32,107 nt of DNA from Actinomycetota bacterium (GTDB taxonomy: Bacteria; Actinomycetota; CADDZG01; WHSQ01), in contig WHTI01000018.1 of assembly GCA_009377815.1 (NCBI GenBank), positions 1-32,107 of the forward strand, written 5' to 3'. How positions within the stretch are numbered: the stretch's first letter is position 1; each line of letters begins with the position of its first letter. Shown here one piece after another: positions 9,291 through 26,839 of this stretch. The notes below the pieces were generated by a model that worked only from the letters and a program-made list of their open reading frames with translations, ran no database searches and was not told the origin of the DNA. Position numbers and translations under genes: made by a program.

Positions 9291-9371
9291 GGGGGCCTCC
9301 GGAGGGCTTTGATTTCAGCGGTGACCAAACCTAACCGCAACCGGGGCAACCACCGAGCGAGGAGCAATAAC

Positions 9372-11387: not shown

Positions 11388-12425
11388 GTGACCTTCAAGC
11401 TCGGGACCGGCCTCTACACCGGCCAGATCCCACCGACTTCGCCCCGAACCTTCCACCAGGAGTACCAGGACACCCTGGCCCTCGTCCGCCTGACCGAGGC
11501 CGAGGGCCTCGACTCCGCCTGGGTCTCGGAGCACCACGGCTCCGCCGACGGCTACCTGCCCTCGCTCCTTCCCTTGCTCGGCGCCTTCGCCGCAGTCACC
11601 GAGCGGATCGAGCTCGGTACCGGTGTGGTGCTCGCGCCATTCCACGATCCCCTACGTCTCGCCGAGGACTTCGCGGTCGTCGACCAGATCTCCGCGGGCC
11701 GGGTCATCGCCGGGCTGGCTCTTGGCTGGAGGGATGAGGAGTTCCGGGCGTTCGGCGTCGACCCGCACACGAAGGTCGGCCGCACGGTCGAGATCAGCAA
11801 GATCCTCCGCCTAGCATGGACTGAGAACCGCTTCGACTTCGACGGCAAGTACTTCCACTACGAGGACGTCGCGGTAACCCCGAAGCCGGCGCGTGTCCCT
11901 CCGCTTCTGATCGGTGGGTTCGTTGACGCCGCGATCGAGAGAGCCGGTCGCACCGGTGACGGATACATCTCGTCCCGCGGCGCGCCGGATCGCGTGAAAG
12001 CGGCGTTCGAACTCGCATCGAAGGCGCGCTCGGAAGCAGGATTCACCGGCGCTCCGATCGTCGCACTCCTCCAGAACACGTTCGTAACCGAGGATCCGGA
12101 TGGTGACTGGCCAACCGTGCGCGCCGGGATCGGGCATCAACTCGGGGTCTATGCAGGATGGCGGTCGGGCACCGATGTGCCGGGGGTTCCGCTTGAAGTC
12201 ATTCCCCCGTCCGAGGACGACATCCGCCGCACGACCGCGTACGGAACGCCCGAGCAGGTCGTCGACTATCTCAGCGATGTCGTCCGGGTACTCGGCTCCT
12301 ATCCCGAATCCCACCTGGTGGTCAGGCTTCATTATCCGGGCATGGACGTCGAGGTTGCGGCACGTTCGATCGAGTTGTTCGCCCGGGAAGTCGCGCCGAG
12401 ACTCCGAGAGATCGCGGCCGGCTGA
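11388..12425 (+). CDS. LLM-class flavin/F420-dependent oxidoreductase
   Basis: A 345-residue luciferase-like monooxygenase-fold protein using FMN or F420; the reaction cannot be read from sequence. Family signs are AWVSEHHGSADGYLPS near residue 45, ELGTGVVLAPFHDPLRLAEDFAVVDQISAGRVIAGLALGW-type core (two shorter motifs LAEDFAVVDQ and GRVIAGLALGW), GKYFHYEDV near 160, and PPLLIGG near 178. It has no signal peptide and is cytosolic. The GTG start follows a TAGGCT box by seven bases. Its stop overlaps the next ATG (TGATG), so it is the first gene of a run leading into envelope-polymer genes, which is an unexpected partner for a flavin enzyme. It could be involved in cofactor-linked oxidation of a lipid or sugar, but this is only suggested by position. 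Confidence 0.85.
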   Translation: MTFKLGTGLYTGQIPPTSPRTFHQEYQDTLALVRLTEAEGLDSAWVSEHHGSADGYLPSLLPLLGAFAAVTERIELGTGVVLAPFHDPLRLAEDFAVVDQISAGRVIAGLALGWRDEEFRAFGVDPHTKVGRTVEISKILRLAWTENRFDFDGKYFHYEDVAVTPKPARVPPLLIGGFVDAAIERAGRTGDGYISSRGAPDRVKAAFELASKARSEAGFTGAPIVALLQNTFVTEDPDGDWPTVRAGIGHQLGVYAGWRSGTDVPGVPLEVIPPSEDDIRRTTAYGTPEQVVDYLSDVVRVLGSYPESHLVVRLHYPGMDVEVAARSIELFAREVAPRLREIAAG

Positions 12426-14389
12426 TGGAGACACCAGACAAGGGTTCGTTACCCGCGGGTCTCGTGGGGGCCGGGGCCGTGCTCGTGGCGCTGGCCGGGA
12501 TCTTCCTCTGGACCCTGGTGCTCGCCGGACCCTGGCGTCTCGGTTCCGGGCTGCTCGAGACCGCCGATCGCATCAAACGCGCCGAGAAGCGTCTGTCCGA
12601 CGGTGACTTCGACACCGCGCGCGAGGTAACGGCCTTTGCGGTCGCCGCCTCGGAGCGGGCGCGCGCCGGCGCCGACGGCGGAGGGCCGTTGCTAGACATC
12701 GCCCAGCTGGTCCCGGTGGCCGGCAACGCCCTCGAGGAGATCGAGCACTTCGTGAAGGCGACCGAATACTCGAGCGCCGCAGCGTTCGAATCGGTGAAGG
12801 TCGCAAGCGAAGCGCTCGGTGGAGATCTCATCCGTCCCGATCCTGAAGAGGAGAACGGGTCGATCATCGATCTCGAGGCCGTCGAGTCGCTGGCCGGCCG
12901 GGTACACAACATCAGGATCGGCCTGCAGAACGGCGCCGAGGAACTGACCGCGATCGATCCGAAGAATCTTCCCAGGAGGTTCCGGGGTGACCTCGCCGAC
13001 GCCCTCGAGCAGGCGGCCACTGCAGACCTCCGGCTCGCCGACGCCGAGGTGGGCTTCGAGCTGCTCCCGGGCATCCTCGGGGCCGACGGTCCCCGCAACT
13101 ATCTCCTCGGCTTCCAGAACAACGCCGAACAGCGAGGAACCGGAGGAGCCATCCTGCAGTTCTCGACCCTCACGGTGGACAACGGCCGGGTTCTGCTGGG
13201 CAACGACAAAAAGGCCGCCAAGACCGTTTACGACGTCGAGGGCGAGGGACGACCGCAGGTCGACGTGCCATTACCCGCCGATGCCTGGATCGTGAGTCAG
13301 ATCCCGGACGCACAACGGTTCGGGAACGCCAACTGGAGTCCCAACTGGCCGATGACGGCAAAGTTGATGCTCGAGTACGCGAAGGCCGCCGACCGCGACA
13401 ACGACGAGGTGGAGCTTCCCGACTTCGACGGGTTCATCGCGGTCGATCCGTTCGCGGTCGAGAAGATGATGCCCGGCGTGGGGCCCTTCACGACGGAGGC
13501 GGGAAACTGGATCACCTCCAAGCGCCTGGTCCCGTTCGTCATGTACTACGCGTACGGGAAGTTCCCGGTCCCCGGCGAGCGCAGGGCCGTCCTCAGGCAA
13601 GTAGTCGACGGGTTCTTCAGCCGGGCGGTCCAGCCTAAGTTCCCAACCGAGTTGCTCGAAGGGTCCGGTTCCGCTTTGGCCGAGAAACGTATCCAGCTGT
13701 GGTTGAAAGACGGTGCCGAGCAGGGGTTCATCAAGCACATGGGGTGGGACGGCGCGATCCCCAAGGCGAAGAGGTCCGACTATCTGATGGTGGTCGAGCA
13801 GAACGTCGGAGGTAACAAGCTCGACTACTTCGCGACCCAGACAACCGCTATGGAAGTCACGATCGACGGCGGCGACGCCCAGGTGGCGACCACCCTTGGC
13901 GTTCACAATGCGGTCTTCGCACCCCAGCCGCGCTGGATCATGGGTGACTCCGGGCCCTTCCATAAGCCGATGCTCAGCCTTTACGTGCCGGGTAACGCCA
14001 CCCTCAACGGGCCGCCGATCGTCACCGGCGAACGGCTCGACGATCCGGCCCCCGCGTTCTGGTTGAACGGGCTCCCGCCGGAGGACCTCGAAGCGGGCAA
14101 GAAGGTATGGTCGGCGACGCTCTGGGTCCCGCCCGGCGAGGACGCTTCGATCGGTTACGACTACACCGTTCCCGGGGTCGTAAGAACCGTCGGTGACCGG
14201 CAAGTCTATCGCCTGGTGATCGGCCACCAGCCGAAGGTCAATCTCGAAGAGGTGACCATCACGCTTACCCTTCCTCAGGGGGCCACCGACATCAGCGCCC
14301 CGAAGGGTTGGGTCGAAGACGGCAACGTACTGACCTGGACCAAAGAACTGAAGGAGGACATAGAGGTGGAGGTGTCGTGGCAAAGCTGA
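12425..14389 (+). CDS. DUF4012 membrane-anchored protein
   Basis: A 654-residue protein with an N-terminal membrane helix at about residues 10-35 and a large, presumably outside, remainder. The DUF4012 core is recognisable from RNYLLGFQNNAEQRGTGGAI around residue 222, followed by a region with FDGFIAVDPFAVEKMM and an adjacent helix-rich part. DUF4012 proteins are common in Actinobacteria and are usually encoded beside polysaccharide genes; their activity is not established. Residues 37-120 before the core look like helical repeats. The C-terminal 100 residues are beta-rich (YRLVIGHQPKVNLEEVTITL), like a small Ig-type or sandwich domain. The ATG overlaps the preceding stop and the 3' end overlaps the nucleotidyltransferase start by 13 bases, so the three genes are coupled. 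Confidence 0.82.
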   Translation: METPDKGSLPAGLVGAGAVLVALAGIFLWTLVLAGPWRLGSGLLETADRIKRAEKRLSDGDFDTAREVTAFAVAASERARAGADGGGPLLDIAQLVPVAGNALEEIEHFVKATEYSSAAAFESVKVASEALGGDLIRPDPEEENGSIIDLEAVESLAGRVHNIRIGLQNGAEELTAIDPKNLPRRFRGDLADALEQAATADLRLADAEVGFELLPGILGADGPRNYLLGFQNNAEQRGTGGAILQFSTLTVDNGRVLLGNDKKAAKTVYDVEGEGRPQVDVPLPADAWIVSQIPDAQRFGNANWSPNWPMTAKLMLEYAKAADRDNDEVELPDFDGFIAVDPFAVEKMMPGVGPFTTEAGNWITSKRLVPFVMYYAYGKFPVPGERRAVLRQVVDGFFSRAVQPKFPTELLEGSGSALAEKRIQLWLKDGAEQGFIKHMGWDGAIPKAKRSDYLMVVEQNVGGNKLDYFATQTTAMEVTIDGGDAQVATTLGVHNAVFAPQPRWIMGDSGPFHKPMLSLYVPGNATLNGPPIVTGERLDDPAPAFWLNGLPPEDLEAGKKVWSATLWVPPGEDASIGYDYTVPGVVRTVGDRQVYRLVIGHQPKVNLEEVTITLTLPQGATDISAPKGWVEDGNVLTWTKELKEDIEVEVSWQS

Positions 14390-15111
14390 GAGCTGCGGTT
14401 CTGGCCGCAGGAAGAGGTGTGCGTATGGGCGGTGAGCGACCCAAGACGTTGCTGCCCGTCGGCGACCATCCCCCACTGCTCCATCACATCCTGACCGGCC
14501 TCAAGGCCGCGGGGGTCGAAGACGTCTTGATCGTGACCGGATTCAAGCCGGCCGAGATACAGGACTACGTCACCGAGAAGTTCCCGGAACTCGCTGCCAC
14601 CTACACGTTCAACGCTCGCTACGCATCGTGGGGCAATTTCCATTCCGTGCGTGTGGCACTCGATCAGTCTCCGGGCTTGGACGTGCTCGTGGTCAACTCC
14701 GATGTCGTTGTGACCCCCGATGTCTACCGGCGGGTTGCCGACGTCCCGGGTGACCTCGTCCTCGCGGTCCAAGAGCGCAGGCACCTCGACGACGAGGACA
14801 TGCGCGTGAGGGTCGAGAGCGGACGGGTACTGGCGATCGGCAAGCACCTCAAGCGCGCTCTCTCGCACGGTGAGTATGCCGGCGTCTCGCTCCTCCGGCC
14901 CCCGGCCGCCCGTCAGTACCTGGACATCTCCGGTGACCAGGAATGGAGCGGAGCGCTGCACGTCTACTACGAGGACGTCTACGCCGAGATGCTCTCCAAG
15001 GTCGATACCCGTGCCGCGTCGGTCGGCGACGGTGAGTACGCCGAAGTCGACAAGCCCGAAGACCTGGCCGCGGCGATCGCCGTCATCGAACGCCTCGAGC
15101 CGGTTGGTTAG
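14377..15111 (+). CDS. LicC/IPCT-like nucleotidyltransferase
   Basis: A 244-residue cytosolic nucleotidyltransferase that would join an NTP, probably CTP, to a phosphorylated alcohol or sugar. The signature LAAGRGVRMGGERPKTLLPV lies at residues 9-28, the metal-binding Asp is in VVNSDVVV (Asp109), and NARYASWGNFHSV near 79-91 resembles the N..Y..tNn..S stretch of phosphocholine cytidylyltransferase LicC and of inositol-phosphate cytidylyltransferases. The GTG at 14377 is preferred: it gives the canonical N-terminus and has GAGGTGG about seven bases upstream, although it overlaps the DUF4012 gene by 13 bases. The next gene begins at the very next base. Since that neighbour belongs to the glycerol-1-phosphate dehydrogenase family, glycerol-1-phosphate is the leading candidate substrate, by context only. 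Confidence 0.86.
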   Translation: MAKLRAAVLAAGRGVRMGGERPKTLLPVGDHPPLLHHILTGLKAAGVEDVLIVTGFKPAEIQDYVTEKFPELAATYTFNARYASWGNFHSVRVALDQSPGLDVLVVNSDVVVTPDVYRRVADVPGDLVLAVQERRHLDDEDMRVRVESGRVLAIGKHLKRALSHGEYAGVSLLRPPAARQYLDISGDQEWSGALHVYYEDVYAEMLSKVDTRAASVGDGEYAEVDKPEDLAAAIAVIERLEPVG

Positions 15112-16143
15112 TTGGACACCCCGCGGGTCGTCGTCTTCGACGCGGGTGATGAGGATGATGCCGCCCGGCATCTCGCACAGTCGGTATCCGAGATCGGGTC
15201 ATCGACACCGCTAGTAGTCACCTCGGTCCACGGTGAACACCTCGCGCGCAAGATCCATGGGGCACGGTTCGAGACCCCACCAGAAGACGCATCGATCGAC
15301 TGGGCCTCGATCCTGGGGGCGGACGCGCATCGCTCCGGCTGCGACATCGTCGTAGCGGTCGGTGGTGGTCGATGCCTCGACCTCGCCAAGCTTGCCGCCG
15401 CCCGTGCGGGACTCACGATGGTGTCGGTCCCCACCCAGTTGTCTCACGATGGGCTCTGTTCTCCGGTCGCCGTTGCCCCCGGTCACGATGGGATCAAGAG
15501 GAGTGTCGGAGCGATCGCCCCGCGCTCGGTGTATCTGTCACTCCCCACTCTCCAGAAGTCACCGGCGGCCTCGGTGCGGGCCGGGATAGGCGACCTCCTT
15601 GCCAATCCGTTCGCCCTGCGGGACTGGGCCCTCGCCAAGGAGCGGGGGCTGGCCGAGGTCGACCAGGTTGCCTGGGACATGTCGGAGCGCTCCTACGCGA
15701 CGATCGAACCGTTCCTCGAGATCGATCTCACCGACGGGTTGCACGACTCCGCCTTCCTCAGATCGCTGGCCGATGCCTTGGTCCTCTCGGGGATCGCGAT
15801 GATCCACTCCGGATCGTCGCGGCCCGCATCGGGAGGGGAACACGAGATCTCCCACGCCCTCGACGAGCTCTTCGGCGGCCCCGGTATGCACGGCGCTCAG
15901 GTCGCATTCGGCTGCATATTCTCGGCCGCGCTCTACGGTGATGACCCGGGAGCCGTTCGCAAGCGCCTGACGAAGCTGGGCCTGCCGGCCGACCCCGGTG
16001 CTCTGGGATTGAGCCACGAGGATGCGGTGAAGGTCCTCCTCGCGGCCCCAGACACTCGTCCGGGCCGCTTCACGATCATCGAGGAAGCGGCTCTCGACGA
16101 GTCCGGCGCACAGAGGCTTGTAGGAGAGATATGGCGACCATGA
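15112..16143 (+). CDS. sn-glycerol-1-phosphate dehydrogenase family (Fe-ADH_2) protein
   Basis: A 343-residue cytosolic NAD(P)-dependent metal dehydrogenase. The family (archaeal EgsA, Bacillus AraM) reduces dihydroxyacetone phosphate to sn-glycerol-1-phosphate, the stereoisomer used in archaeal lipids. Visible hallmarks are VAVGGGRCLDLAKLAAARAG at residues 81-100, VPTQLSHDG at 106-114, AGIGDLLAN at 157-165, SGSSRPASGGEHEISHALD at 233-251 and MHGAQVAFG at 259-267; Asp161, His244 or His248, and His260 fit the metal ligands. The words SHDG and SGSSRPASG separate it from glycerol dehydrogenase and phosphonoacetaldehyde reductase. Start is TTG directly after the preceding stop, with no strong ribosome site, so translation is probably coupled. 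The 3' end overlaps the next gene by 13 bases. Exact substrate is inferred from family, not shown. Confidence 0.83.
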   Translation: MDTPRVVVFDAGDEDDAARHLAQSVSEIGSSTPLVVTSVHGEHLARKIHGARFETPPEDASIDWASILGADAHRSGCDIVVAVGGGRCLDLAKLAAARAGLTMVSVPTQLSHDGLCSPVAVAPGHDGIKRSVGAIAPRSVYLSLPTLQKSPAASVRAGIGDLLANPFALRDWALAKERGLAEVDQVAWDMSERSYATIEPFLEIDLTDGLHDSAFLRSLADALVLSGIAMIHSGSSRPASGGEHEISHALDELFGGPGMHGAQVAFGCIFSAALYGDDPGAVRKRLTKLGLPADPGALGLSHEDAVKVLLAAPDTRPGRFTIIEEAALDESGAQRLVGEIWRP

Positions 16144-17801
16144 CGATGCGCGGCCGGCGGGTCGTCGCCGGATTGCTGGTGTTGGGTTTACTTGGCGGAG
16201 CCTTCTTCGTGGTTTCGGCGATCGGTGGAGACGACGATCCCGCGCCGGGAGATAAAGCCGCCGGCGCGATCGAGGTCGATGACCGCATCTTCGAGACCAA
16301 CGACCCGGTCGAACGAGGCTGCGCTCTCGCTCTCGAGCTCCTGAAGCGGATCGAGCGAGGCACCGTGCCCGAGCACACCGAAGATCTGCTGTTCGTCCCT
16401 CAGGCCCCCAACTACGTGGGCACGTTTGGGATCAGGAGTCATTCGGGACCGTTCGACTACCTCCAAACGATCCCGCTCGTCTTCTACGGCCCCGAACGGA
16501 TCGTCGCCCAGGGCGAAGCTCTGGATAAGGCGGCGAGCATCACCGACGTCTACCCCACCGTCGGACAACTCACCGACGTAGATCTTCCCGAACGCAAGGG
16601 GAAGGTGCTTGAGGACACTCTCAAGCCGGATGTTCCCGGGGTTCCTAAGTTGATCCTCACCGTGGTGTGGGACGGGGTCGGGCGCAACATGCTGGAACGG
16701 TGGCCCGACGACTGGCCAAACCTCGCTCGCATGGAGAGGAAGGGGACGTCCTATCTCGGGGCGACGGTTGGATCGTCGCCCAGCATCACGCCGGCCACGC
16801 ACTCGAGCCTCGGCACCGGTGCCTTCCCGAAGGATCACGACGTTACCGCGATCACGATGCGCTTCGGCGAAGAGATCCGGGACGCATTCGCCGGTCGTGT
16901 CGCCTCCGACCTGAAACTCACGACGTTCGGCGACGAGGTCGACCTCGCGTACAACAACGAGTCGCTCGTCGGGATGCTCGCGTGGAAGTCGTGGCACTTG
17001 GGGATGCTGGGACACGGCTCCATGACCCCGGGAGGTGACCAGGACCTGCTGGGCATCATCGGCCACGACGAGAACATCACCGGGAACCCCGAGTACTACG
17101 CCACCCCCGAGTACCTGACTCCCTTCCCCGGCCTCACCGAGCGTCTCGAGGAACTCGATCGTGCCGACGGTGAGATCGACGAGCAATGGATGGGTCACGA
17201 CATCGAGCTGCACGAGAATCCGGCGTGGGTCAACTACTTGGGCGACGTGCTCCTTGCGACCATGGACCGAGAAGGCTTCGGTGCCGACGACGTCCCCGAT
17301 CTCCTGATGACCAACTTCAAGATGACCGACATCGTGGGTCACCAGTACTCGATGGATTCACCCGAGGAACCCGTCGTGTTGCGGGCGCAAGATGCCCAGC
17401 TCGGGCGCCTGATCGACTACCTCGATGCCGAGGTCAAGGATTACGTCGTGATCGTCACCGCCGACCACGGACACACTCCCAGCACGGAACGCTCGGGGGC
17501 CTGGCCGATCGCCAAAGGCGCCCTCGTCGCCGACCTCAACCGGTTCCTCGGGGTCGATGAGGACGCCAGCCCGGTGATCAACACCAGTGCGGTGGGGATG
17601 TTCTTCGATCCCGATCTCCTGTCGGCCACGGGCAAGACGCTTGACGAGGTCGCCACCTGGATGAACGACTACCGCCTGGAAGACAACTGGGACGAGGAGC
17701 TCCCCGCCGGCTACGAGGACCGTGCCGACGAGCAGGTCATGGCCGCGGTGTTCCCCACCGATGCGCTGCCCGAGATCATGGCCTGCTCCCGCCTAGGATG
17801 A
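16131..17801 (+). CDS. Membrane-anchored alkaline-phosphatase-superfamily enzyme, apparently circularly permuted
   Basis: A 556-residue exported or anchored protein: basic start (MRGRR), then a hydrophobic helix at about 11-31. Residues 88-165 hold what is normally the C-terminal part of the fold: SHSGPFDYLQTIPLVFYGP (His104) and ASITDVYPTVGQL. The usual N-terminal part follows: VVWDGVGRNML (Asp181), SITPATHSSLGTG (nucleophile Thr220), then MTDIVGHQ (Asp400, His404) and TADHGHTPS (Asp445, His446). The chain after 460 has no second GxHS/VPLxxYG element, so the third metal-site His seems to come from the N-terminus. Thr as nucleophile suggests a phosphodiesterase/pyrophosphatase or phosphotransferase. 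AGGAG four bases before the ATG at 16131 supports this start, which overlaps the dehydrogenase gene by 13 bases. Confidence 0.82.
   Translation: MATMTMRGRRVVAGLLVLGLLGGAFFVVSAIGGDDDPAPGDKAAGAIEVDDRIFETNDPVERGCALALELLKRIERGTVPEHTEDLLFVPQAPNYVGTFGIRSHSGPFDYLQTIPLVFYGPERIVAQGEALDKAASITDVYPTVGQLTDVDLPERKGKVLEDTLKPDVPGVPKLILTVVWDGVGRNMLERWPDDWPNLARMERKGTSYLGATVGSSPSITPATHSSLGTGAFPKDHDVTAITMRFGEEIRDAFAGRVASDLKLTTFGDEVDLAYNNESLVGMLAWKSWHLGMLGHGSMTPGGDQDLLGIIGHDENITGNPEYYATPEYLTPFPGLTERLEELDRADGEIDEQWMGHDIELHENPAWVNYLGDVLLATMDREGFGADDVPDLLMTNFKMTDIVGHQYSMDSPEEPVVLRAQDAQLGRLIDYLDAEVKDYVVIVTADHGHTPSTERSGAWPIAKGALVADLNRFLGVDEDASPVINTSAVGMFFDPDLLSATGKTLDEVATWMNDYRLEDNWDEELPAGYEDRADEQVMAAVFPTDALPEIMACSRLG
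17794..17799 (+). promoter_or_regulatory. -10 box (TAGGAT) before second phosphatase-fold gene
   Basis: TANNNT hexamer in the last codons of the preceding gene, with six bases to the ATG at 17806. It suggests an internal leaderless promoter in the cluster, in addition to read-through. The overlap with a conserved C-terminus makes chance occurrence more likely than at the intergenic examples. Confidence 0.4.
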
Positions 17802-17805
17802 GTTC

Positions 17806-19425
17806 ATGACCAGCAGAGCCGCGGTGATCGGCCTCGACGGGGCCGCCTGGCACCTCCTCGACCCCCTCATCGAGGCGGGGCTGATGCCCCGCCTGGCCGC
17901 CCTGAAGGCAAAGGGCGCCTCGGGCACGATGATGTCGACCGTTCCCACCTACACCCCGCCAGCGTGGACCTCGGCGGCCACCGGTGTGAACCCCGGCCGT
18001 CACGGGATCTACGGATTCGTCGAGGGCCACGCGCAGGCGGAGCACCAGAGCCTCTCGCACTCGGGCAAGGTCAGGTCGTCGACGATCTGGGAGATGGCGA
18101 ACGCGCAGGGGGCCAGGGCCGGGATCTACAACCTCCCGCTCACCTACCCGCCGCAGCCGCTCGACGGATGGATGGTCTCCGGGATGATGACCCCCGGCTA
18201 CGGGGAACGGCAACGCGGGTTCGCCTCGTGGGGCGCACCCCACCAGGGGTCCGAACTCGAAGCCAAGATCCTGGAGTGGGCGCCGGGCTACGTCCTCGAC
18301 ATCTCCGCCAACTACGAGCAGGACTGGCGCGACGAGAAGCTGGCGATCTCGGCCCTCGATTCGATCCGCCAGCGCAAGGTCGTACTCGAACGCTTACTCG
18401 CAACCGATCCGCCCGACGTTCTGTTCTCGGTCCAAGAGGCCCCCGACCGGATCCAGCACGTCTACTACCGCTACCTGGATCCTTCCGACGTCCTCTACGA
18501 CACGCCCGAGGGCCGCACGATCCGCCCGCACGTCGAGCGGTGCTTCGCCGCCATGGACGAGATCATCGGACTGCTCGACGACTGGGCCGGCGGCGTGATC
18601 GTCTGCTCCGATCACGGGTTCACCGCGTGGGAGGTCACCGTCCACCTGAACGCGTTGCTCGCGTCGTGGGGCTACTTCTCCTTGAGGGCCGGCACGCGTG
18701 CGATGCAATCGGGCGCCGTGCGCAAGCTCATCCCGATCGCGAAGCGTGTCCTCCCTCGCAAGTTCGCGCGCGGGGCCAAAGCGAAGACGTTCGCGGCGAT
18801 CGACTGGTCGAGGACCCGGGCGTTCGCATCCCCTATCCCCCAGCAGGGGATCTACATCAACCTCAAAGGGAGAGATCGCTTCGGCATCGTCGAGCCATCC
18901 GAACTCGCGGCGATGAAGGCGGACATCACCGAACGGTTGCTGAGCGCGTCGGGACCCGACGGGATGCCGTTCGTCGACCGGGTGTGGGCATCGGAAGAAG
19001 TCTTCCACGGCCAAGCCCTCGAAGGTGCCCCCGACCTCCTCCCGGTCATGCGCGATCACCGCTTCGAGAACTCCGATGAGATCTTCCACACCGATCCGTT
19101 CTCGGACGTCGCGCACATGCCCCGCGGGGTTCACCACCCCGAGGGGATCGTGATCGTCTCGGGCCCCGGCGTTAAGCCGGGCGAACACATCGAGGGGCAC
19201 GTACAGGACGTCACCCCGACACTCCTGTACCTCGCCGGCCTCAAGGTGCCCGAGGGCCTCGACGGCAACGTCCTCACCGGCGCTTTCGAGAACGGCCACC
19301 TCGAGTCACGGCCGGTCGAATGGACCGATCCCGCGACGAGTGGAGGACGGGACGGGAGTTCGCCATACTCGGACGAGGAGGAAGCGATGATCGAGCAATC
19401 GCTCCGGGGACTCGGGTACCTGTGA
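17806..19425 (+). CDS. Cytosolic alkaline-phosphatase-superfamily phosphodiesterase/transferase
   Basis: A 539-residue enzyme of the type I phosphodiesterase/nucleotide pyrophosphatase group with no signal peptide. Metal and catalytic residues in order: Asp11 (IGLDGA), nucleophile Thr50 (YTPPAWTS), Asp214 and His218 (PDRIQHV), Asp269 and His270 (SDHGF), and a late His in RGVHHPEG. Specific marks are PIPQQGIYINLKGR near 345 and a C-terminal tail EEEAMIEQSLRGLGYL. Both recur in the minus-strand gene at 21720-23345, so the two are paralogues on opposite arms of the cluster. The cytosolic location argues for processing an intracellular intermediate, such as a nucleotide-activated or lipid-linked phosphodiester. 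Four bases separate it from the preceding gene and its stop overlaps the next start. Confidence 0.85.
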   Translation: MTSRAAVIGLDGAAWHLLDPLIEAGLMPRLAALKAKGASGTMMSTVPTYTPPAWTSAATGVNPGRHGIYGFVEGHAQAEHQSLSHSGKVRSSTIWEMANAQGARAGIYNLPLTYPPQPLDGWMVSGMMTPGYGERQRGFASWGAPHQGSELEAKILEWAPGYVLDISANYEQDWRDEKLAISALDSIRQRKVVLERLLATDPPDVLFSVQEAPDRIQHVYYRYLDPSDVLYDTPEGRTIRPHVERCFAAMDEIIGLLDDWAGGVIVCSDHGFTAWEVTVHLNALLASWGYFSLRAGTRAMQSGAVRKLIPIAKRVLPRKFARGAKAKTFAAIDWSRTRAFASPIPQQGIYINLKGRDRFGIVEPSELAAMKADITERLLSASGPDGMPFVDRVWASEEVFHGQALEGAPDLLPVMRDHRFENSDEIFHTDPFSDVAHMPRGVHHPEGIVIVSGPGVKPGEHIEGHVQDVTPTLLYLAGLKVPEGLDGNVLTGAFENGHLESRPVEWTDPATSGGRDGSSPYSDEEEAMIEQSLRGLGYL

Positions 19426-20882
19426 CGCAAACCGAGGCTGTACCGGCCTTTCCGATCCGCAAGCGAGCCCACCGGCAGAGCAGCTTCCGCATCGCTCTGC
19501 GGGTCCTGGCCGACGGCATGGCCGTTTCGTCCGCGCTGTTCCTAGCCACCGCTCTCCGGTTCGAGATCTTCAGCGGTGCGCCGGGGAAGGTCGACGGAGC
19601 GCTGATCGATTACACCCTGGTGACTGTCATCGCGACGCCGGTGTGGCTCCTCCTGTTCTGGCTCTACGGGCTCTACGAGCCGCGCCAGGTTCTGTCGCCG
19701 GTCAACGAGTTCAAACAGGTCTTCCATGGGGTGGTTGCCGGCTCGGTGCTCATCTTCGTGGCCGACTCGGTCTTCAACCGCAACCTCGCGCGCGGGTGGG
19801 CTCTGCTCGGTATGGCGCTCAGCTTCGTCCTCGTGGGCGGCGAACGTCTGGTCGTTAGGAAGTTCCTCCACTTTATGAGGAGGCGCGGCTCGGATGCGAC
19901 CCGCACCCTGATCGTCGGCACCAACCACGAAGCACGCACGATCGCCAAGACCCTCGACCGTGAGGGCTGGCTCGGCTATCAGATCCTCGGCTTCGTCGAC
20001 GACGCCGGCCCCGACAGTGAGGAACTCGAGGACGGTTACACGGTGCTGGGAACGCTCGCCCAACTGAAGGACTTGGTCGATGAGTACCGGGTGAACAACG
20101 TCCTCATCGCTGCATCCGCTCTCGATCCCGGCTATCTCAACCGGCTGTTCTGGGAACTGCAGGATCACGACGTCGACATCCAGATCACCTCGGGAACCGT
20201 CGACCTGATGGCGTCCAGGATGATCGTGCAGTCGGTCGCGGGTGTTCCACTCCTGTACGTCCGTCGCAGTGGGATGGACGGACTTCAGAGAACCATCAAA
20301 CGCAGCATCGATGTCGCCGGATCGCTGTTCGTCGGGCTCTTGCTCTCCCCCGTGCTCCTCGCCTTCGCCCTGTGGATCAAACGGGACTCCCACGGCCCGG
20401 CCTTCTTCAAGCAGGTGCGAGCCGGACGCGACGGCGAGCCATTCGTGTGCTGGAAGTTCCGAACGATGGTGGCCGATGCCGAAGAGCGGAAGGCCGAACT
20501 CGAGGCCCTGAACGAGGGGCCCGGCCTGCTGTTCAAGGTCAAGGAGGATCCGCGCATCACCAAGGCGGGAAAGTTCCTTCGACGGTTCTCGCTCGACGAA
20601 CTGCCGCAGCTACGGAACGTCCTCAAGGGTGAGATGAGCCTGGTCGGCCCCCGCCCCGCGCTCCCCTCCGAGGTTGAGCAGTTCGACGACTGGACCCGGA
20701 ACCGGATGAAGGTCAAGCCCGGGATGACCGGCCTGTGGCAGGTCTCAGGGCGGGCGGAGACGAGCTTCTCCGACTACGTCCGCTACGACCTCTTCTACAT
20801 CCAGAACTGGTCCCTATCGCTCGACCTCTGGATCCTCTGGCGCACCTTCCGGGCCGTGCTCTCTGCCGAGGGCGCGCACTAG
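19422..20882 (+). CDS. Polyprenyl glycosylphosphotransferase (sugar transferase, WbaP/CpsE type)
   Basis: A 486-residue integral membrane enzyme that starts polymer assembly by moving a sugar-1-phosphate from a nucleotide sugar to undecaprenyl phosphate. Four or five helices occupy residues 22-145; a Rossmann-like middle domain spans 160-285 (LIVGTNHEARTIAKTL); the catalytic bacterial-sugar-transferase domain runs from about 292 (KRSIDVAGS), a hairpin helix at 300-318, then KFRTM (345-349), SLDELPQLRNVLKGEMSLVGPRP and KPGMTGLWQVSGR. The GTG at 19422 is chosen because it overlaps the preceding TGA by four bases and gives the normal N-terminus; an open extension upstream to 19320 would overlap the phosphatase gene by 106 bases. 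Its place at the end of the run says the cluster makes a lipid-carrier-built glycan. Sugar specificity is not readable. Confidence 0.92.
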   Translation: MTQTEAVPAFPIRKRAHRQSSFRIALRVLADGMAVSSALFLATALRFEIFSGAPGKVDGALIDYTLVTVIATPVWLLLFWLYGLYEPRQVLSPVNEFKQVFHGVVAGSVLIFVADSVFNRNLARGWALLGMALSFVLVGGERLVVRKFLHFMRRRGSDATRTLIVGTNHEARTIAKTLDREGWLGYQILGFVDDAGPDSEELEDGYTVLGTLAQLKDLVDEYRVNNVLIAASALDPGYLNRLFWELQDHDVDIQITSGTVDLMASRMIVQSVAGVPLLYVRRSGMDGLQRTIKRSIDVAGSLFVGLLLSPVLLAFALWIKRDSHGPAFFKQVRAGRDGEPFVCWKFRTMVADAEERKAELEALNEGPGLLFKVKEDPRITKAGKFLRRFSLDELPQLRNVLKGEMSLVGPRPALPSEVEQFDDWTRNRMKVKPGMTGLWQVSGRAETSFSDYVRYDLFYIQNWSLSLDLWILWRTFRAVLSAEGAH

Positions 20883-20904
20883 GCATCGAGGCGCCACGAA
20901 GGGG

Positions 20905-20910
20905 TAACCT
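20905..20910 (+). promoter_or_regulatory. -10 box (TAACCT) for leaderless ACT gene
   Basis: TANNNT hexamer in the 34-base gap after the sugar transferase gene, six bases before the ATG at 20917. No Shine-Dalgarno follows it. One of the clearest examples of the recurring spacing. Confidence 0.55.
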
Positions 20911-20916
20911 CGAAGC

Positions 20917-21294
20917 ATGCTTGAGGAGATCGTCCTATCCATCGACGACGAACCGGGGGCCCTGGCCGTTATAGGGGAGCTCCTCGGCGACTCCAAGGTC
21001 AACATCTACGCCCTGTCCGCCACGACCTACAATGAACAGGGAGTCGTCCACCTTGTTTGTGACGACGGTGATGACGCGGCGGAGGTCCTGAAGTCGAACG
21101 GATTCAAGGTCAGGACCACCCGCCCCGTAATGACCGCAACGGTCGACGACCAGCCCGGGGAGCTAGGCCGCTACTGCCGCAAGCTGACCGACGCCGGTGT
21201 CACAATCTCCGCCGCGTATGTCGCTAGAAAAGGTGGCGGCGAGACCGAGTTGGTGTTCGCGGTCGACGACCTCGAGGCTGCCCAAGAAGCGTGA
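20917..21294 (+). CDS. Tandem ACT-domain protein
   Basis: A 125-residue cytosolic protein with two ACT-like units: residues 1-62 (IVLSIDDEPGALAVIGELL...INIYALS-type pattern, read here as VNIYALSATTY) and 66-125 (TATVDDQPGELGRYCRKLTDAGVTISAAYV). Each shows the DxPGxL turn that binds small ligands, usually amino acids, at domain interfaces. No catalytic domain is attached, so it is a stand-alone sensor, similar to small ACT proteins of unknown target found in many bacteria and archaea. A TAACCT box six bases before the ATG indicates its own leaderless transcript. It ends five bases from the convergent DUF4383 gene. Nothing ties it specifically to the polymer genes. Confidence 0.83.
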   Translation: MLEEIVLSIDDEPGALAVIGELLGDSKVNIYALSATTYNEQGVVHLVCDDGDDAAEVLKSNGFKVRTTRPVMTATVDDQPGELGRYCRKLTDAGVTISAAYVARKGGGETELVFAVDDLEAAQEA

Positions 21295-21299
21295 CGCCT

Positions 21300-21701
21300 C
21301 TACGTTGCGCGGGCCGGTCCCTCCGCTCCCACTGAACCAAAGTAGAGCGCCAGCGCCGCGGTCGCGACGTGCAGGTAGTTGTCGGTCGAGCCCGCGTCCT
21401 TGATGGCGAGGAACTCGAGGGCGCCGACCATGCCCAGCACGAAGAAGAGTCCGAGGACGACCCCGAAAGCGAGGTTCACGGACTTGGCCGAAGCGTGCTT
21501 GCCGGCGGCGCCGAGCCACACTGCCCCCAGTCCGAGGTGCACGATGTTGTGGAGTGGGTTCACGGGAAAGATGATGAGTTCCTCTCCAACACCCTTCCCT
21601 GCGAATTCATCGAAGCCCGTTACCGCGAACCCGAGCAGACCCATCACGAGGTAGACCACACCGAAGACCAGAGCGAATATCTGTGCCGGCGTCTTGTTCA
21701 T
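21300..21701 (-). CDS. DUF4383 membrane protein
   Basis: A 133-residue integral membrane protein with four hydrophobic helices (about 7-27, 48-66, 74-98, 104-124). The marker FPVNPLHNIVHLGLGAVWL at about residues 45-63 is the core of the DUF4383 family, frequent in Actinobacteria and of unknown role. The start is firm: AAAGGAG lies four bases before the ATG. It is the last gene of the minus-strand run and starts 18 bases after the phosphatase-fold gene ends, so it is likely co-transcribed with it. The short C-terminal tail (GSVGAEGPARAT) is unremarkable. Confidence 0.85.
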   Translation of the reverse strand: MNKTPAQIFALVFGVVYLVMGLLGFAVTGFDEFAGKGVGEELIIFPVNPLHNIVHLGLGAVWLGAAGKHASAKSVNLAFGVVLGLFFVLGMVGALEFLAIKDAGSTDNYLHVATAALALYFGSVGAEGPARAT

Positions 21702-21719
21702 CGTTCTCCTTTCGCGTGC

Positions 21720-23345
21720 CTAGAGGTAGCCAAGGTTCTTGAGGGACTCCTCGATCGCCGCTTCCTCCTCGGCCGTATAGGCCTCGGCCTGCGAGCCCTC
21801 ACCTGCATTCGGAAGATCCATCGCCTCGATCACCGGCGGCCGGCCGGCGACCATTTCCGGGGGGAGATAGCGAGTCAGCACCTCGCCGTCGACCTCGGGG
21901 ACCTTGAGCCCGGCGAGATACAGAGCGGTCGGCATCATGTCGAGGAGGTTCGCCCGTTCCCCACGGCGCGCTTCGATCCCGGGCCCGGCCACGCCGAAGA
22001 CGCCGTCCATGTGGTGGAAACCCCTTGGCAGCGAGCGGTAGTCGTCGAGGACGGACGGTGAGTAAAGGCCGTCGGACAGCTCGTACGAGTACTCCCGGCA
22101 CACGGGATAGAGGTCGGGCGCGAAGGGGGCCTGGGATCCGTTGACCACGTCCTCGCGCTTGTACACGTGGTCCACGACCGGCTTGCCGTCGTCGGGATCG
22201 ATCAACGAGGTCAGCTTGGCGATGATCTCGTCCCTGACAGCTTCGTAGTCGCTCTGGGGGACGATCCCCTGCTCCTCGCGACCTTCGAGATTGATGTAGA
22301 TCCCCTGCTGCGGGATCGGAGCGGAGAACGCCTTCGTGCTGCTCCAGTCGATCGACTGTTGCGCCGCGCCCTTGGCTTTCTGCCACACCGACTTCGGAAG
22401 GAGCTTCTTCGCCCTCCGCGCGACCTTCCTGACTCCTTGCGACTTCGTGACGGCACCGGCCCCTTTGACCGAGAGGAACCCCCACTCGCGCAGCGCGACG
22501 TTGATGTTCACGCTCTTGTCCTTGGGTCCGAAACCGTGGTCGGACATCGACAGCACCCAGCCGTCGTCACCGGCCCAGTCGAGGAGATCCGCGATCATCT
22601 CGTCCATCTCGTCGAAGAACTCCCACGCGCGTTCGCGGATCGCCTTCGCTTCGGGACGGTTGTAGTGCTCCTCGCGCGGATCGATGTACTTGTAGTGAAC
22701 GTGCATCAATCGGTCGGGGGCTTCGAGCACCGCGAACAACAGAGGGACGTCGCTGGTATCGAGGAGGTACTTGAGAGCCGTTCGCTTCTTGGCGAGGTTC
22801 CGAGACAAGCGCTCGATGATGTCGGTGGACTTCCAGTCCTGCGCGTAGTCGACCTCGATGTCGATCTCGTAGCTGCCGGTCTTGCCCACGATCTCGGCCG
22901 CGAGCTCGGGCGGGTAGGTGAAGTTGTCCGGAGTCTCGCCGCCGCCTTCGGGAGTCAGCATGCCGGACACCGAGAATCCATCGACGACGGGGGCCGGGTA
23001 GGTCATCGGGATGTTGAACAGACCGATCTTCGTGCCCTGAGCGTTGGCGGCGTTCCAGATCGCGGGAGCGGCAACCTTCTCGAGCCGTACTAGGCCGAGG
23101 CTCTTCTGAACGTGCCCAAGGGTGAACCCGAAGATGCCGTGCTTGCCGGGATTCACGCCGGTGAAGATCGAGGTCCACCCCGGCGGGGTGTACGGCGGCA
23201 CGGTGGAGGTCAGCTTCCCGGAGACCCCTCGGTCGAGCAACGCCTTGAACCGGGGCATGTGCCCGGCCTCGAACGCCGGATCGAGGACCGAGAAGGTCAT
23301 CCCATCGAGCCCGAGCATGAGGGTTCTCACCGAAGGCGTGTCCAT
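21720..23345 (-). CDS. Alkaline-phosphatase-superfamily enzyme, paralogue of 17806-19425
   Basis: A 541-residue cytosolic protein of the type I phosphodiesterase group. Asp14 (LGLDGM), nucleophile Thr53 (YTPPGWTS), Asp211 and His215 (PDRLMHV), Asp269 and His270 (SDHGF) and a late His (RGFHHMDG) give the complete metal site. It shares with the plus-strand enzyme the blocks GVNPGKHGIFGF, PIPQQGIYINLEGR and the tail EEEAAIEESLKNLGYL, so they came from one ancestor. It overlaps the CDP-alcohol phosphatidyltransferase gene by 19 bases, which couples them and makes a role on the product or by-product of that transferase plausible. Possible activities include phosphodiester hydrolysis and phosphoalcohol transfer; sequence alone does not decide. 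Confidence 0.85.
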   Translation of the reverse strand: MDTPSVRTLMLGLDGMTFSVLDPAFEAGHMPRFKALLDRGVSGKLTSTVPPYTPPGWTSIFTGVNPGKHGIFGFTLGHVQKSLGLVRLEKVAAPAIWNAANAQGTKIGLFNIPMTYPAPVVDGFSVSGMLTPEGGGETPDNFTYPPELAAEIVGKTGSYEIDIEVDYAQDWKSTDIIERLSRNLAKKRTALKYLLDTSDVPLLFAVLEAPDRLMHVHYKYIDPREEHYNRPEAKAIRERAWEFFDEMDEMIADLLDWAGDDGWVLSMSDHGFGPKDKSVNINVALREWGFLSVKGAGAVTKSQGVRKVARRAKKLLPKSVWQKAKGAAQQSIDWSSTKAFSAPIPQQGIYINLEGREEQGIVPQSDYEAVRDEIIAKLTSLIDPDDGKPVVDHVYKREDVVNGSQAPFAPDLYPVCREYSYELSDGLYSPSVLDDYRSLPRGFHHMDGVFGVAGPGIEARRGERANLLDMMPTALYLAGLKVPEVDGEVLTRYLPPEMVAGRPPVIEAMDLPNAGEGSQAEAYTAEEEAAIEESLKNLGYL

Positions 23346-23983
23346 ATGGTCTTGAGCATAGCGAGGGTGACCATGGCGATCCCTACGCCGAAGGCCGGGA
23401 GCACGAAGCCGCTCAGCGGACCGAAGATGTAGACGATTGCCTGGACGTCGGGCATCCCCGGGTTCGGTAACAGCCTCCGGCGCGCTAATGCCTGTGCCAG
23501 ACGTCCGCCGGGACCGTCGCCCTTCTCGGCCCCCGCGATCTCAAGGAAGTAATAGGCGAGGAAGACGTAGGTGATGACCCACCAGATGTCCCGGTCGACG
23601 AGATCGGGCGCGCGCCAGACGTAGATCGCCAGTCCGGCCCCCGCTGCCGCGCGCCGGGCACCGTCGGCAAGATGGTCGAGCGCTTCACCCTTCGCGCTGG
23701 TGACCCCGGTCGCTCGTGCCAGCTTCCCGTCGACGCAATCGAACACGAACGCCAGATAGAACGAGATGCCCCCGGCGATCAGGCCCCAACGCTCGCCGGT
23801 GGCGAAGAACCCGCCCGACATGAGCCCGAAGATCAACGCGATCACGGTTACCTGATCGGGGCTCAGCCAGCGATGCCGGAAAAGGAACCTCACGATGCGG
23901 ATCGACACCGGGTCGGTCAGCAGGACCGTGAACCAGTAATCCCGCTTCTTCGCGCCGGGCGGATGGGCCCATATATCGGTCAT
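23327..23983 (-). CDS. CDP-alcohol phosphatidyltransferase
   Basis: A 218-residue integral membrane enzyme that transfers a phosphoalcohol from a CDP-activated donor to a hydroxyl acceptor with release of CMP. The family motif is perfect: Asp82-x2-Asp85-Gly86-x2-Ala89-Arg90-x8-Gly99-x3-Asp103-x3-Asp107. Hydrophobic helices surround it (43-60, 66-81, 108-125, 133-148, 176-210). Before the motif, WLSPDQVT is the usual interface segment. Substrates could be CDP-diacylglycerol plus a polyol phosphate, or a soluble CDP-alcohol made by the LicC-like nucleotidyltransferase encoded 8 kb away. The ATG overlaps the upstream glycosyltransferase stop by four bases, and its own end overlaps the phosphatase-fold gene, so all three are one operon. 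Confidence 0.9.
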   Translation of the reverse strand: MTDIWAHPPGAKKRDYWFTVLLTDPVSIRIVRFLFRHRWLSPDQVTVIALIFGLMSGGFFATGERWGLIAGGISFYLAFVFDCVDGKLARATGVTSAKGEALDHLADGARRAAAGAGLAIYVWRAPDLVDRDIWWVITYVFLAYYFLEIAGAEKGDGPGGRLAQALARRRLLPNPGMPDVQAIVYIFGPLSGFVLPAFGVGIAMVTLAMLKTIWTRLR

Positions 23984-24927
23984 CGCTTAGATCCGTACTG
24001 CGGATCGACGAGCCCGTGGCCGCGGGCCTGCTCCAACGAACCGGTGACGAGACCGGTCACGAGACCCGGATCGCGCGTCTGGATCGCCTTACCGATGTTG
24101 ATGATGAACAGACCGGTCAGCGCCCACCACAACGCCGCCTTGTAGCGGAAGGTCTGCGGCATCAGCTTGCGGTGGAGGTAGAACTGATTCGCCATGTTCA
24201 TCCGTTGCAGCTCGTGAGAATTCATCCGTGCGGCGTCGCTCTTGAGGTGGTCACAACGGGCCGCCGGAGTCTGCAGCAGGGTGTAGCGGCGCGAGACACG
24301 GTAGGAGAAATCGATGTCCTCCTTGTATCCGTAGCCGGCGAGTTTCTCGTCGAACCGATCGTCGGCGAAGACCTCTCGTTTGTATGACATGAACCAACCG
24401 TTCATGTACTCGATCCTCCGAACCCCCGCCGAATCGGAGACCCCCTCCGCGTAGAACCCCTTGCGGATCCTCCCCGAGGCCTCCGGCCACCACCCGCCGA
24501 TGCCGAACAGGCGGCGATAGAGGATCGTGATCCTCGACGGCCTCGCGGGCCGCACCGGCGTGGCGCGGACACCACCGATCTCAGGTCCCCACTTCGCGTA
24601 CTCGGCCAGGATCTGCTCGTGGCAGTCGGGCTCGAGGCGGACGTCATCGTCGATGAGGAAGACGATGTCGCCATCGGTGCGATCGATGCCGACGTTGCGC
24701 TGCACGGTCAGGCCCCTCGGGGCCGGATGGACGTAGTCCAGGCTCAGGCCGTTGTCGGCACAGAGCTTCTCGATCGCCTCTCGGTTTGGGGCCTCGTCGC
24801 TCGAGTCCACGATCGCCAGCTCGCCCGGCAGCACGGTCTGGGCCACGAGGCTCTCGACCGTTCGCAGCAGGTCATCGGGGCGGTTGCGCGTGGCTATGAC
24901 GAACGAGCTCTTGGGATCTGTAGACAT
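23980..24927 (-). CDS. Family 2 glycosyltransferase
   Basis: A 315-residue GT-A fold glycosyltransferase. SFVIATRNRPDDLLRTVESL at residues 8-27 is the nucleotide-sugar-binding start, FLIDDDVRLEP at about 90-100 gives the DxD metal motif, and GYKEDIDFSYRV near 219-230 carries the catalytic acidic pair. A hydrophobic C-terminal stretch (ALWWALTGLFIINI) may tether it to the membrane. It would add a sugar to a lipid-linked acceptor in the same pathway as the downstream CDP-alcohol transferase, with which it overlaps by four bases. I prefer the ATG at 24927, since the family begins there; an in-frame ATG at 24984 would add 19 residues of non-conserved sequence. A TACCCT box lies ten bases upstream of the chosen start. 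Confidence 0.88.
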   Translation of the reverse strand: MSTDPKSSFVIATRNRPDDLLRTVESLVAQTVLPGELAIVDSSDEAPNREAIEKLCADNGLSLDYVHPAPRGLTVQRNVGIDRTDGDIVFLIDDDVRLEPDCHEQILAEYAKWGPEIGGVRATPVRPARPSRITILYRRLFGIGGWWPEASGRIRKGFYAEGVSDSAGVRRIEYMNGWFMSYKREVFADDRFDEKLAGYGYKEDIDFSYRVSRRYTLLQTPAARCDHLKSDAARMNSHELQRMNMANQFYLHRKLMPQTFRYKAALWWALTGLFIINIGKAIQTRDPGLVTGLVTGSLEQARGHGLVDPQYGSKR

Positions 24928-24983
24928 ACCGGGGGGCAGGGTACCAATCCGGGCCCCCGAGCAGGGATGACCGATATGGGCCA

Positions 24984-25012
24984 TTGTCCCCAGCCGCCCC
25001 AGGCCCTACCGT
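24984..25012 (+). promoter_or_regulatory. Promoter of metallophosphoesterase gene (TTGTCC, 17 bases, TACCGT)
   Basis: TACCGT at 25007-25012 stands six bases before the ATG at 25019, so the transcript would be leaderless. TTGTCC at 24984-24989 sits 17 bases upstream of it, a fair -35 match with ideal spacing. This is the only one of the leaderless-type promoters here with a plausible -35 element. It lies in the 91-base divergent gap with the glycosyltransferase. Confidence 0.5.
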
Positions 25013-25018
25013 GACCCA

Positions 25019-26839
25019 ATGCTTACCGATGCGCTCCACCTCATCCGGTCGCGCCGTGTTCTGGCCGCCGCCGGGCTTGCTCTCGCCCTCTTCGTCGCCT
25101 CCTTCGCGGGAGGCCCCGGGACCGTCTTGCGCGCCAAGGCCGCTCCCCTGGGCCAGACCACCCTCGACAAGACGATCGTGCCCAAGGGCAAGAAGGGCAA
25201 GAAGAAGAAGCAGTTGAAGTACGGCCCCGGCCAGGCCCGGGTGACCCGCTCACTCATCAAGAACTATCCGACCGGTCCCGGCGAAGGGCTCGCCGCTTTC
25301 CGCCAGATCTCGGACGTCCACACGGTCGACGAAGAGTCCCCGGCCCGGGTCGAGTGGGCCGACAAGTGTGGCCCCGGCTACACGAGCGCCTATCGTCCGC
25401 AGGAGGCGATGTCCGCCCAGGTCGGCGATTCGATGATGAAGGCCCTGAACTCGATCGTTAACGGACCGGCGACGGATGTCCCGTTCAGTTTCGCGATCTC
25501 GACCGGGGACAACGTTGACAACAACCAGTACAACGAGCTCCGCTGGTTCATCGATCTGCTCGACGGTGAGGAGGTCGTGCCAAACTCCGGCGGTACAACT
25601 GCCGAGGACCGTGCCGCATCTCCCTACGAGGGCTACACCCGAGATCTGACACAGAACAACCTCGGTGATGACATCGGGGTCCCCTCTGCGACCGCGTTGG
25701 GCACCAGCATCCTCGAACTCGCCCAGGACGGTTTCGACGCGACCGGCTCGGAGGTTCCCTGGTACGCGGTCCTGGGCAACCACGACGGCCTCGCGCAGGG
25801 CAACCTGCCGGGTACCGGCGCATTCGCGCCTGTCCCCCTCGGGAGCCACAAGAACTTCAGCCCCATCGAAGACAAGAAGTACTGCGCCGTCTTGGTCGAG
25901 GACGCCGTCCAGGGCGTGACCGACGCCCTCGTTGACCTCTTCAGCGGACACTCGGTCACGGCCGACCCCGACCGCCGCTTCCTTAGCAACCACAACGACG
26001 TTGTGGCCGAGTACTTCAACTCGACTGGTCTCCCAGAGGGCCACGGCTTCGACAACGCGCCGATGGATCCGCAGCACGCCGGCACCGCGGGCTACTACTC
26101 GTTCGACATCGAGGCCGAGTACCACATCAAGGGGATCTCGCTGGATACGATCACCTGGGGCGGAGGGCCGGACGGAAGCGTCTCCAACCCGCAGTTCCAG
26201 TGGCTCGAGGACGAGCTGATCGCGAACTCCAGCTCGTATTACGACGAAGCGGGAGAGCTCGTCGAGAACCCCGGCGTTGAAGACAATTTCGTCGTTCTGT
26301 TCTCGCACCACACCTCGAAGTCCTTGAACAACCCCGGGCCAGATGACGCAGGGGCGCCGTACCACTGCTTCAAGGCAGGTGACGATGAGGATTGCGACTC
26401 CGTGGGCCTCAAGGATCTGATCCACCGGTTCCCGAACGTGATCGCGTGGGTCAACGGACACGAGCACAACAACCGTGTCAATGCCTACAAGGCTCCCGAG
26501 GGCGCCGCGACGCGGGGCTTCTGGGAGATCAACACGGCCGCTCACATCGACTGGCCCCAGCAGTCCCGCCTGCTCGAGATCGCGTGGCAGGAGGGCGACC
26601 TCTACACGCCGGACGTCCTCATCATCTACGGGACGATGGTGGACAGCGCCGCGCCGATCAAGCCCAACCCGGAAACGCAGGTTCCCGTGACCTACCTCGC
26701 CGCCCTGTCGCGGTATCAGGCCTACAAGGATGCTTGCCTGCGGAAGGGCCAGGCCGACTGCAGTGCGAGGGGTAAGCCCGGAAGCAGGAACGTCAAGCTG
26801 ATCATCCCGGCCGCGTTCAACCCGTGGCCTGACCTCTAG
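25019..26839 (+). CDS. Exported PPA1498-type metallophosphoesterase
   Basis: A 606-residue calcineurin-like phosphoesterase. The N-terminus RSRRVLAAAGLALALFVASF (10-29) fits a twin-arginine (Tat) signal, suggesting export after folding with its metals. A Lys-rich patch follows at 56-67. The five metal motifs are complete: ISDVHTVDE (Asp99, His101), STGDNVDN (Asp164), VLGNHDG (Asn254-His255-Asp256), LFSHHTSKSL near 420 and WVNGHEHNN near 480. The RQISDVHTVDEESPARVE run is diagnostic of the PPA1498 group, secreted phosphoesterases of unknown substrate in Actinobacteria. It could act on phosphodiesters or nucleotides outside the cell. It ends four bases inside the convergent WecG-type gene and just before a strong hairpin. 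Confidence 0.88.
   Translation: MLTDALHLIRSRRVLAAAGLALALFVASFAGGPGTVLRAKAAPLGQTTLDKTIVPKGKKGKKKKQLKYGPGQARVTRSLIKNYPTGPGEGLAAFRQISDVHTVDEESPARVEWADKCGPGYTSAYRPQEAMSAQVGDSMMKALNSIVNGPATDVPFSFAISTGDNVDNNQYNELRWFIDLLDGEEVVPNSGGTTAEDRAASPYEGYTRDLTQNNLGDDIGVPSATALGTSILELAQDGFDATGSEVPWYAVLGNHDGLAQGNLPGTGAFAPVPLGSHKNFSPIEDKKYCAVLVEDAVQGVTDALVDLFSGHSVTADPDRRFLSNHNDVVAEYFNSTGLPEGHGFDNAPMDPQHAGTAGYYSFDIEAEYHIKGISLDTITWGGGPDGSVSNPQFQWLEDELIANSSSYYDEAGELVENPGVEDNFVVLFSHHTSKSLNNPGPDDAGAPYHCFKAGDDEDCDSVGLKDLIHRFPNVIAWVNGHEHNNRVNAYKAPEGAATRGFWEINTAAHIDWPQQSRLLEIAWQEGDLYTPDVLIIYGTMVDSAAPIKPNPETQVPVTYLAALSRYQAYKDACLRKGQADCSARGKPGSRNVKLIIPAAFNPWPDL

Follow-up and report, generated by a model that had tools for sequence, protein, structure and literature searches.

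What does a gene of the glycerol-1-phosphate dehydrogenase (G1PDH) family do in an actinomycete? Bacterial homologues of this family, for example in Streptomyces, are usually read as a hint of archaeal-like lipids across the 'lipid divide' (PMC6431249). The question was raised by a stretch of 32,107 nucleotides (the window; contig WHTI01000018.1, assembly GCA_009377815.1) from the draft genome of an uncultured actinomycete, which is 96.6% complete. In the window, the dehydrogenase gene directly follows a gene for a LicC-like nucleotidyltransferase, and a CDP-alcohol phosphotransferase gene lies farther along on the opposite strand. From family assignments and gene neighbourhood we propose, with moderate confidence, that these three genes (the trio) belong to a pathway that would make CDP-activated sn-glycerol-1-phosphate and put it onto, or build it into, a glycoconjugate of the cell surface, with substrates, stereochemistry and acceptor as predictions. 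In the class to which the window belongs, the G1PDH gene is tied to surface glycans and the chemistry of CDP-alcohols instead of archaeal-like lipids, and the same probably holds in Streptomyces. Such a link would alter how the presence of G1PDH in bacteria is read.

Conservation of the trio was examined in 24 genomes of the class, 16 from the window's family and 8 from two sister families. Within the window's family, the dehydrogenase and nucleotidyltransferase genes were each present in 15 of 16 genomes and the CDP-alcohol transferase gene in all 16, whereas all three were absent from all 8 genomes of the sister families. The trio thus tracks together, as had been expected from the sequence-only reading, which was made from the letters of the window. 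The sole family genome without the dehydrogenase and nucleotidyltransferase is 81% complete. The two genes are adjacent in every family-f1 relative that has both on the fetched contig, and this adjacency is not due to chance.

The dehydrogenase was found in 41 of 396 sampled genomes of the phylum. Outside the window's family it occupied 28 loci in 15 genera (counting the second copy in genome G012), and a CDP-alcohol transferase gene lay within 4 kb of it in 23 of the 28 loci, representing 11 of the 15 genera; a nucleotidyltransferase gene was present in 22. These loci contained 40 CDP-alcohol transferase genes in 218 kb near the dehydrogenase, as against none in 295 kb farther off. The neighbourhood is conserved both within and beyond the family, and the link among the trio reaches wider than the window and is considerably stronger than the sequence-only reading could know. 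Conserved clustering, together with shared presence and absence, strongly supports a functional link among dehydrogenase, nucleotidyltransferase and transferase.

The Streptomyces fungicidicus locus follows the order DUF5941 protein, phosphocholine cytidylyltransferase family protein, iron-containing alcohol dehydrogenase, CDP-alcohol phosphatidyltransferase, glycosyltransferase, ABC permease and ABC ATPase, after which hopanoid genes are found. Synteny of araM, CDP-alcohol transferase and tagGH in Streptomyces has been noted without any pathway (PMC13118837), and our literature search on a trio pathway in actinomycetes found synteny only and no described pathway. The Streptomyces block resembles the window in bringing the same three families and a glycosyltransferase together, there in one run. 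It differs in its second CDP-alcohol transferase, its DUF5941 and its ABC exporter; the window's family has a single transferase, in an operon apart from the other two genes, along with AlkP-fold enzymes and WecG/TagA. A TagGH-type ABC exporter is present in Streptomyces and in other dehydrogenase loci. DUF5941, encoded first in the cluster as it occurs in Streptomyces, is itself fused to a CDP-alcohol transferase (L073:7298-8617; L096:2186-4003), and our literature search found no mention of it.

The dehydrogenase (15112-16143, plus strand) matched PF13685 (Fe-ADH_2, E 3e-20); among NCBIfam models its top match was NF002022 (E 1.5e-61), the model of NAD(P)-dependent glycerol-1-phosphate dehydrogenase. 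Alignment with the solved G1PDHs 5fb3 and 4rgq revealed SHDGxxSP (SNDG in 4rgq), GxGD, SSRPxSG, EH and HG in common, with D161, H244, H260 and S236-R237-P238 in register. We take D161, H244 and H260 to be metal ligands, from what is known of the family; both histidines are kept in the 18 actinobacterial proteins aligned, and the aspartate in nearly all. Because the best curated model, the motifs and the conserved ligand residues all point the same way, membership of the EgsA/AraM (G1PDH) family has good support, and reduction of dihydroxyacetone phosphate (DHAP) to sn-glycerol-1-phosphate is the very likely activity.

Several observations weigh against the proposed pathway. The dehydrogenase scored 208 bits, about half of the G1PDH equivalog cut-off of 413, and its best solved match was 3ce9, which is labelled a glycerol dehydrogenase and lacks the arginine of SSRP. 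Five of the 28 loci outside the family have no transferase. Beyond the actinomycetes, dehydrogenase homologues on plasmids of Nitratidesulfovibrio and Cytobacillus stand alone without trio partners, so clustering of the trio is not universal for the dehydrogenase family. In the window's family a distance of 4-20 kb separates the transferase from the dehydrogenase, and the two are on opposite strands. The window shows neither an exporter nor a polymerase near the transferase; the rest of the genome was not searched for an exporter.

The low score also bears on an alternative in which the families are right and the molecule is not glycerol-1-phosphate: another keto-phosphate would be reduced and the resulting phospho-alcohol activated, a step for which LicC, CTP:inositol-1-phosphate cytidylyltransferase (IPCT) and sugar-1-phosphate nucleotidyltransferases could each serve as the model. 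We regard this as unlikely. Trio dehydrogenases of other families, among them those of Streptomyces and further actinomycetes, likewise have the G1PDH model as their top match and also stay below its cut-off, at 215-262 bits, so the equivalog model is a narrow one. SHDGxxSP, the Asp/His/His metal set and SSRPxSG(x)EH, common to solved proteins named G1PDH, are kept, and a single product is known for the G1PDH family.

The nucleotidyltransferase (14377-15111, plus strand; PF12804, NTP_transf_3, E 3e-16) would act next in the glycerol-1-phosphate pathway that we prefer. Its best solved relative was LicC (1jyk), followed by IPCT (2xme). In addition to the NTP_transf_3 fold, it retains the LicC signature N..YA..NN..S in slightly varied form (GN for NN), the varied stretch being common to trio nucleotidyltransferases of other families, and its homologues are nearly always found near a CDP-alcohol transferase. 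We infer CTP as the nucleotide and glycerol-1-phosphate as the substrate of this putative CTP:sn-glycerol-1-phosphate cytidylyltransferase; that glycerol phosphate is activated with CTP is quite likely. Glycerol-phosphate cytidylyltransferases outside the TagD family exist, according to PMC8262930, which cites Rodrigues 2017.

The CDP-alcohol phosphotransferase (23327-23983, minus strand; PF01066 above cut-off, E 8e-14) carries the complete motif D..DG..AR.{8}G...D...D, intact as DCVDGKLARATGVTSAKGEALDHLAD. In a quick tree, of which only the broad split was used because of its long branches, the protein clustered with dehydrogenase-linked transferases and separately from the PgsA (TIGR00560, over cut-off) and ClsA-like (below model cut-off) enzymes of its own genome. 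The only other paralogue on the same side was the PIP-synthase-like enzyme of this genome (L004). That the transferase uses the activated glycerol phosphate, as a putative sn-glycerol-1-phosphate transferase from CDP-glycerol, is likely, with slightly less assurance than the activation itself. Its gene is co-transcribed with that of a GT2 glycosyltransferase (23980-24984, minus strand; PF00535), and the pair is conserved in relatives and in Streptomyces. A TagA-family transferase also neighbours it: WecG/TagA, GT2, CDP-alcohol transferase and AlkP genes stand contiguous in a row on one strand in two relatives (L031 and L032), and in the window the WecG/TagA gene (26836-27786, minus strand; PF03808, E 4e-59) lies just past a metallophosphoesterase gene.

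These neighbours bear on the acceptor. CDP-sn-glycerol-1-phosphate might instead be used on membrane lipid, where transfer to diacylglycerol or a glycolipid would give phosphatidylglycerol or a glycerophospho-glycolipid and bypass the PGP phosphatase step. Choline/ethanolamine phosphotransferase-type enzymes, which use diacylglycerol, are among the nearest solved relatives of the transferase, and the head group of phosphatidylglycerol is sn-1 (PMC8262930). Set against this are the genome's own PgsA and ClsA-like enzymes and the ties of the transferase gene to WecG/TagA and GT2, and to the ABC exporter in Streptomyces, and we consider this use quite unlikely. Some sn-glycerol-1-phosphate could also leak into lipids, because PlsY and PlsC can accept both enantiomers (PMC13400652). 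Given the other steps, a lipid-linked glycan is a somewhat more plausible acceptor than diacylglycerol.

The single nearest solved relative of the transferase was AF2299, and IPCT-DIPPS appeared for nucleotidyltransferase and transferase both. The trio might accordingly make a soluble or lipid-linked compound of the glycerophosphoinositol type from CDP-glycerol and inositol phosphate, the way hyperthermophiles do through DIPPS. Archaeoglobus and Aquifex reportedly synthesize glycerophosphoinositol with a glycerol-phosphate cytidylyltransferase and DIPPS, some with a preference for sn-1. A CDP-glycerol donor and a CDP-alcohol phosphotransferase are shared with the pathway proposed here, but theirs yields a soluble solute, on an inositol phosphate acceptor, without glycan neighbours. 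The glycosyltransferase and exporter neighbours of the trio indicate a surface product, and the genome has its separate PIP-synthase-like enzyme. Inositol-1-phosphate synthase, found in 22 of the 24 class genomes, would suit an inositol product; the sister families, which have no trio, possess the synthase equally, so the trio is not accounted for by inositol. We hold this alternative to be highly unlikely. The gene is missing from the window's assembly, probably through an assembly gap in view of its presence in those 22 genomes, and its absence was rejected as an argument against inositol. In one relative, a second G1PDH, 41% identical, directly overlaps the gene of a PIP-synthase-like CDP-alcohol transferase (L037:9170-10820, G012:C15); the window's genome has a homologue of that transferase (L004) but no second G1PDH.

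Bacterial G1PDH is best known from the GGGPS route (PMC6431249, PMC5059525), in which glycerol-1-phosphate goes on to archaeal-type ether lipids, as with AraM and PcrB of Bacillus subtilis. The window shares a G1PDH homologue with B. subtilis, where the product becomes heptaprenylglyceryl phosphate, whereas no GGGPS/PcrB was found in the window's genome. Across the class there were only four fragmentary GGGPS matches, covering the last ~50-65 of 226 model positions within long unrelated frames. The lack of GGGPS makes an archaeal-lipid route extremely improbable here and largely refutes it. GpsA, the normal source of sn-glycerol-3-phosphate for ordinary lipids, is present in the genome.

In the surface-glycan pathway, the dehydrogenase would convert DHAP to sn-glycerol-1-phosphate, the LicC-like enzyme would join this to CMP from CTP to give CDP-glycerol, and the membrane CDP-alcohol phosphotransferase would transfer the glycerol phosphate onto a hydroxyl group of an acceptor bound to the membrane. 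The acceptor would most likely be a glycan on a polyprenyl carrier, whose synthesis the sugar transferase would begin and WecG/TagA and GT2 would continue, and in Streptomyces-type loci the ABC exporter would take the product out. The confidence that we attach to each step is a judgement and not a computed value. Of the CDP-sn-glycerol-1-phosphate pathway put forward in the sequence-only reading, the link among the trio and the family of the dehydrogenase held up, and substrate, enantiomer, CTP and acceptor are predictions still.

In wall teichoic acid synthesis, the TagA step directly precedes the addition of the first glycerol phosphate by TagB. Because WecG/TagA runs with the transferase, the CDP-alcohol transferase could hold the place of TagB, as an unrelated enzyme handling the opposite glycerol enantiomer. 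Like the TagO-TagA-TagB and TagD system, the proposed pathway has a polyprenyl-linked sugar start, a WecG/TagA-family transferase, CTP-activated glycerol phosphate and, as predicted, a lipid-linked glycan acceptor. It differs in that a LicC-like nucleotidyltransferase stands instead of TagD, that G1PDH would supply sn-1 rather than sn-3 glycerol phosphate, and that transfer would fall to a CDP-alcohol phosphotransferase; PF04464 (TagB/TagF CDP-glycerol glycerophosphotransferase) was not found in the window's genome, with a positive B. subtilis control. Tentatively, the genes may represent a second, hitherto undescribed actinomycete route to surface glycerol phosphate, in which cytosolic G1PDH and a LicC-type enzyme would supply CDP-sn-glycerol-1-phosphate for a CDP-alcohol phosphotransferase acting on a lipid-linked glycan. 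As tentatively, this route may be the enantiomeric, non-homologous counterpart of TagD/TagB, and G1PDH in bacteria may through it serve something other than ether lipids.

The product had been described as the mirror form of teichoic-acid glycerol phosphate. The description fits in relation to wall teichoic acid, which is made from CDP-activated sn-glycerol-3-phosphate, but not to lipoteichoic acid, which already has sn-glycerol-1-phosphate units, derived from phosphatidylglycerol (PMC8262930). The predicted route would mirror only the CDP-glycerol from which wall teichoic acid and some capsules are built, and its new element, if our reading is right, is a cytosolic CDP-activated sn-1 route and not a new polymer handedness. 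Lipoteichoic acid synthesis resembles it in bringing sn-glycerol-1-phosphate onto the cell surface and differs in taking the glycerol phosphate from phosphatidylglycerol outside the cell instead of activating it with CDP in the cytosol. GacH-type transfer also brings sn-glycerol-1-phosphate to the surface, taken from phosphatidylglycerol outside the cell. If the pathway is as proposed, Streptomyces, which can be manipulated genetically, should have a corresponding component in its envelope, and the enzymes would offer a new source of enantiopure CDP-sn-1-glycerol.

All gene identities in the window were assigned with curated profiles (Pfam and NCBIfam), and the gene positions, order and families of the sequence-only reading were borne out, each gene matching a curated family. 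A tight plus-strand run (12425-20882) comprises genes for DUF4012, the nucleotidyltransferase, the dehydrogenase, two AlkP-fold proteins and a polyprenyl-phosphate hexose-1-phosphate transferase (19320-20882; EPS_sugtrans, TIGR03025, E 3e-132, over cut-off). The nucleotidyltransferase gene has a GTG start and overlaps the DUF4012 stop at 14389, and the dehydrogenase gene has a TTG start immediately 3' of the nucleotidyltransferase stop. Convergent with this operon is a minus-strand run of overlapping genes (24984-21720), consisting of GT2 (24984-23980), CDP-OH_P_transf (23983-23327) and PF01663 (23345-21720). It had been placed 4 kb past the sugar transferase; that figure applies only to its 5' end, at 4.1 kb, and its near end is 0.8 kb beyond.

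The AlkP-fold proteins (PF01663) are additions of the window's lineage, and may act on phospho-groups by trimming, hydrolysis or transfer. The first (16131-17801, plus strand) has an N-terminal signal or anchor and is probably extracytoplasmic; the next (17806-19425, plus strand), a phosphohydrolase or transferase, has no signal peptide and intact active-site residues. A second cytosolic enzyme (21720-23345, minus strand), whose gene overlaps that of the CDP-alcohol transferase, is 44% identical to the 17806 protein, in agreement with the paralogy claimed earlier. No substrate is named for it, because phosphonoacetate hydrolase, NPP and PafA matched equally in a fold search with its predicted structure.

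The DUF4012 protein (12425-14389, plus strand; PF13196, E 2e-25) has an N-terminal membrane helix, and its gene stands upstream of the nucleotidyltransferase in all family relatives with intact contigs except L041. A role as a LytR-CpsA-Psr (LCP)-like ligase was considered and dropped, as an AlphaFold model (pLDDT 80) searched with Foldseek gave weak beta-sandwich matches and no LCP; two ordinary LCP genes lie elsewhere in the genome.

Elsewhere in the window, a sulfatase-family protein (27710-28945) has STTPSFSS in place of the Cys/Ser-x-Pro-x-Arg of formylglycine sulfatases and is on this account more probably an enzyme of the phosphoesterase or phosphotransferase kind; it is followed by a gene for a sulfotransferase (28956-29846). 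A 3-hydroxyacyl-CoA dehydrogenase is tandemly duplicated within one gene (7524-9290), which adjoins a methylmalonyl-CoA mutase-like gene (9156-11360) in an order kept in relatives. The protein encoded at 29941-31110 matches several families of bacterial archaeo-eukaryotic release factors (baeRF).

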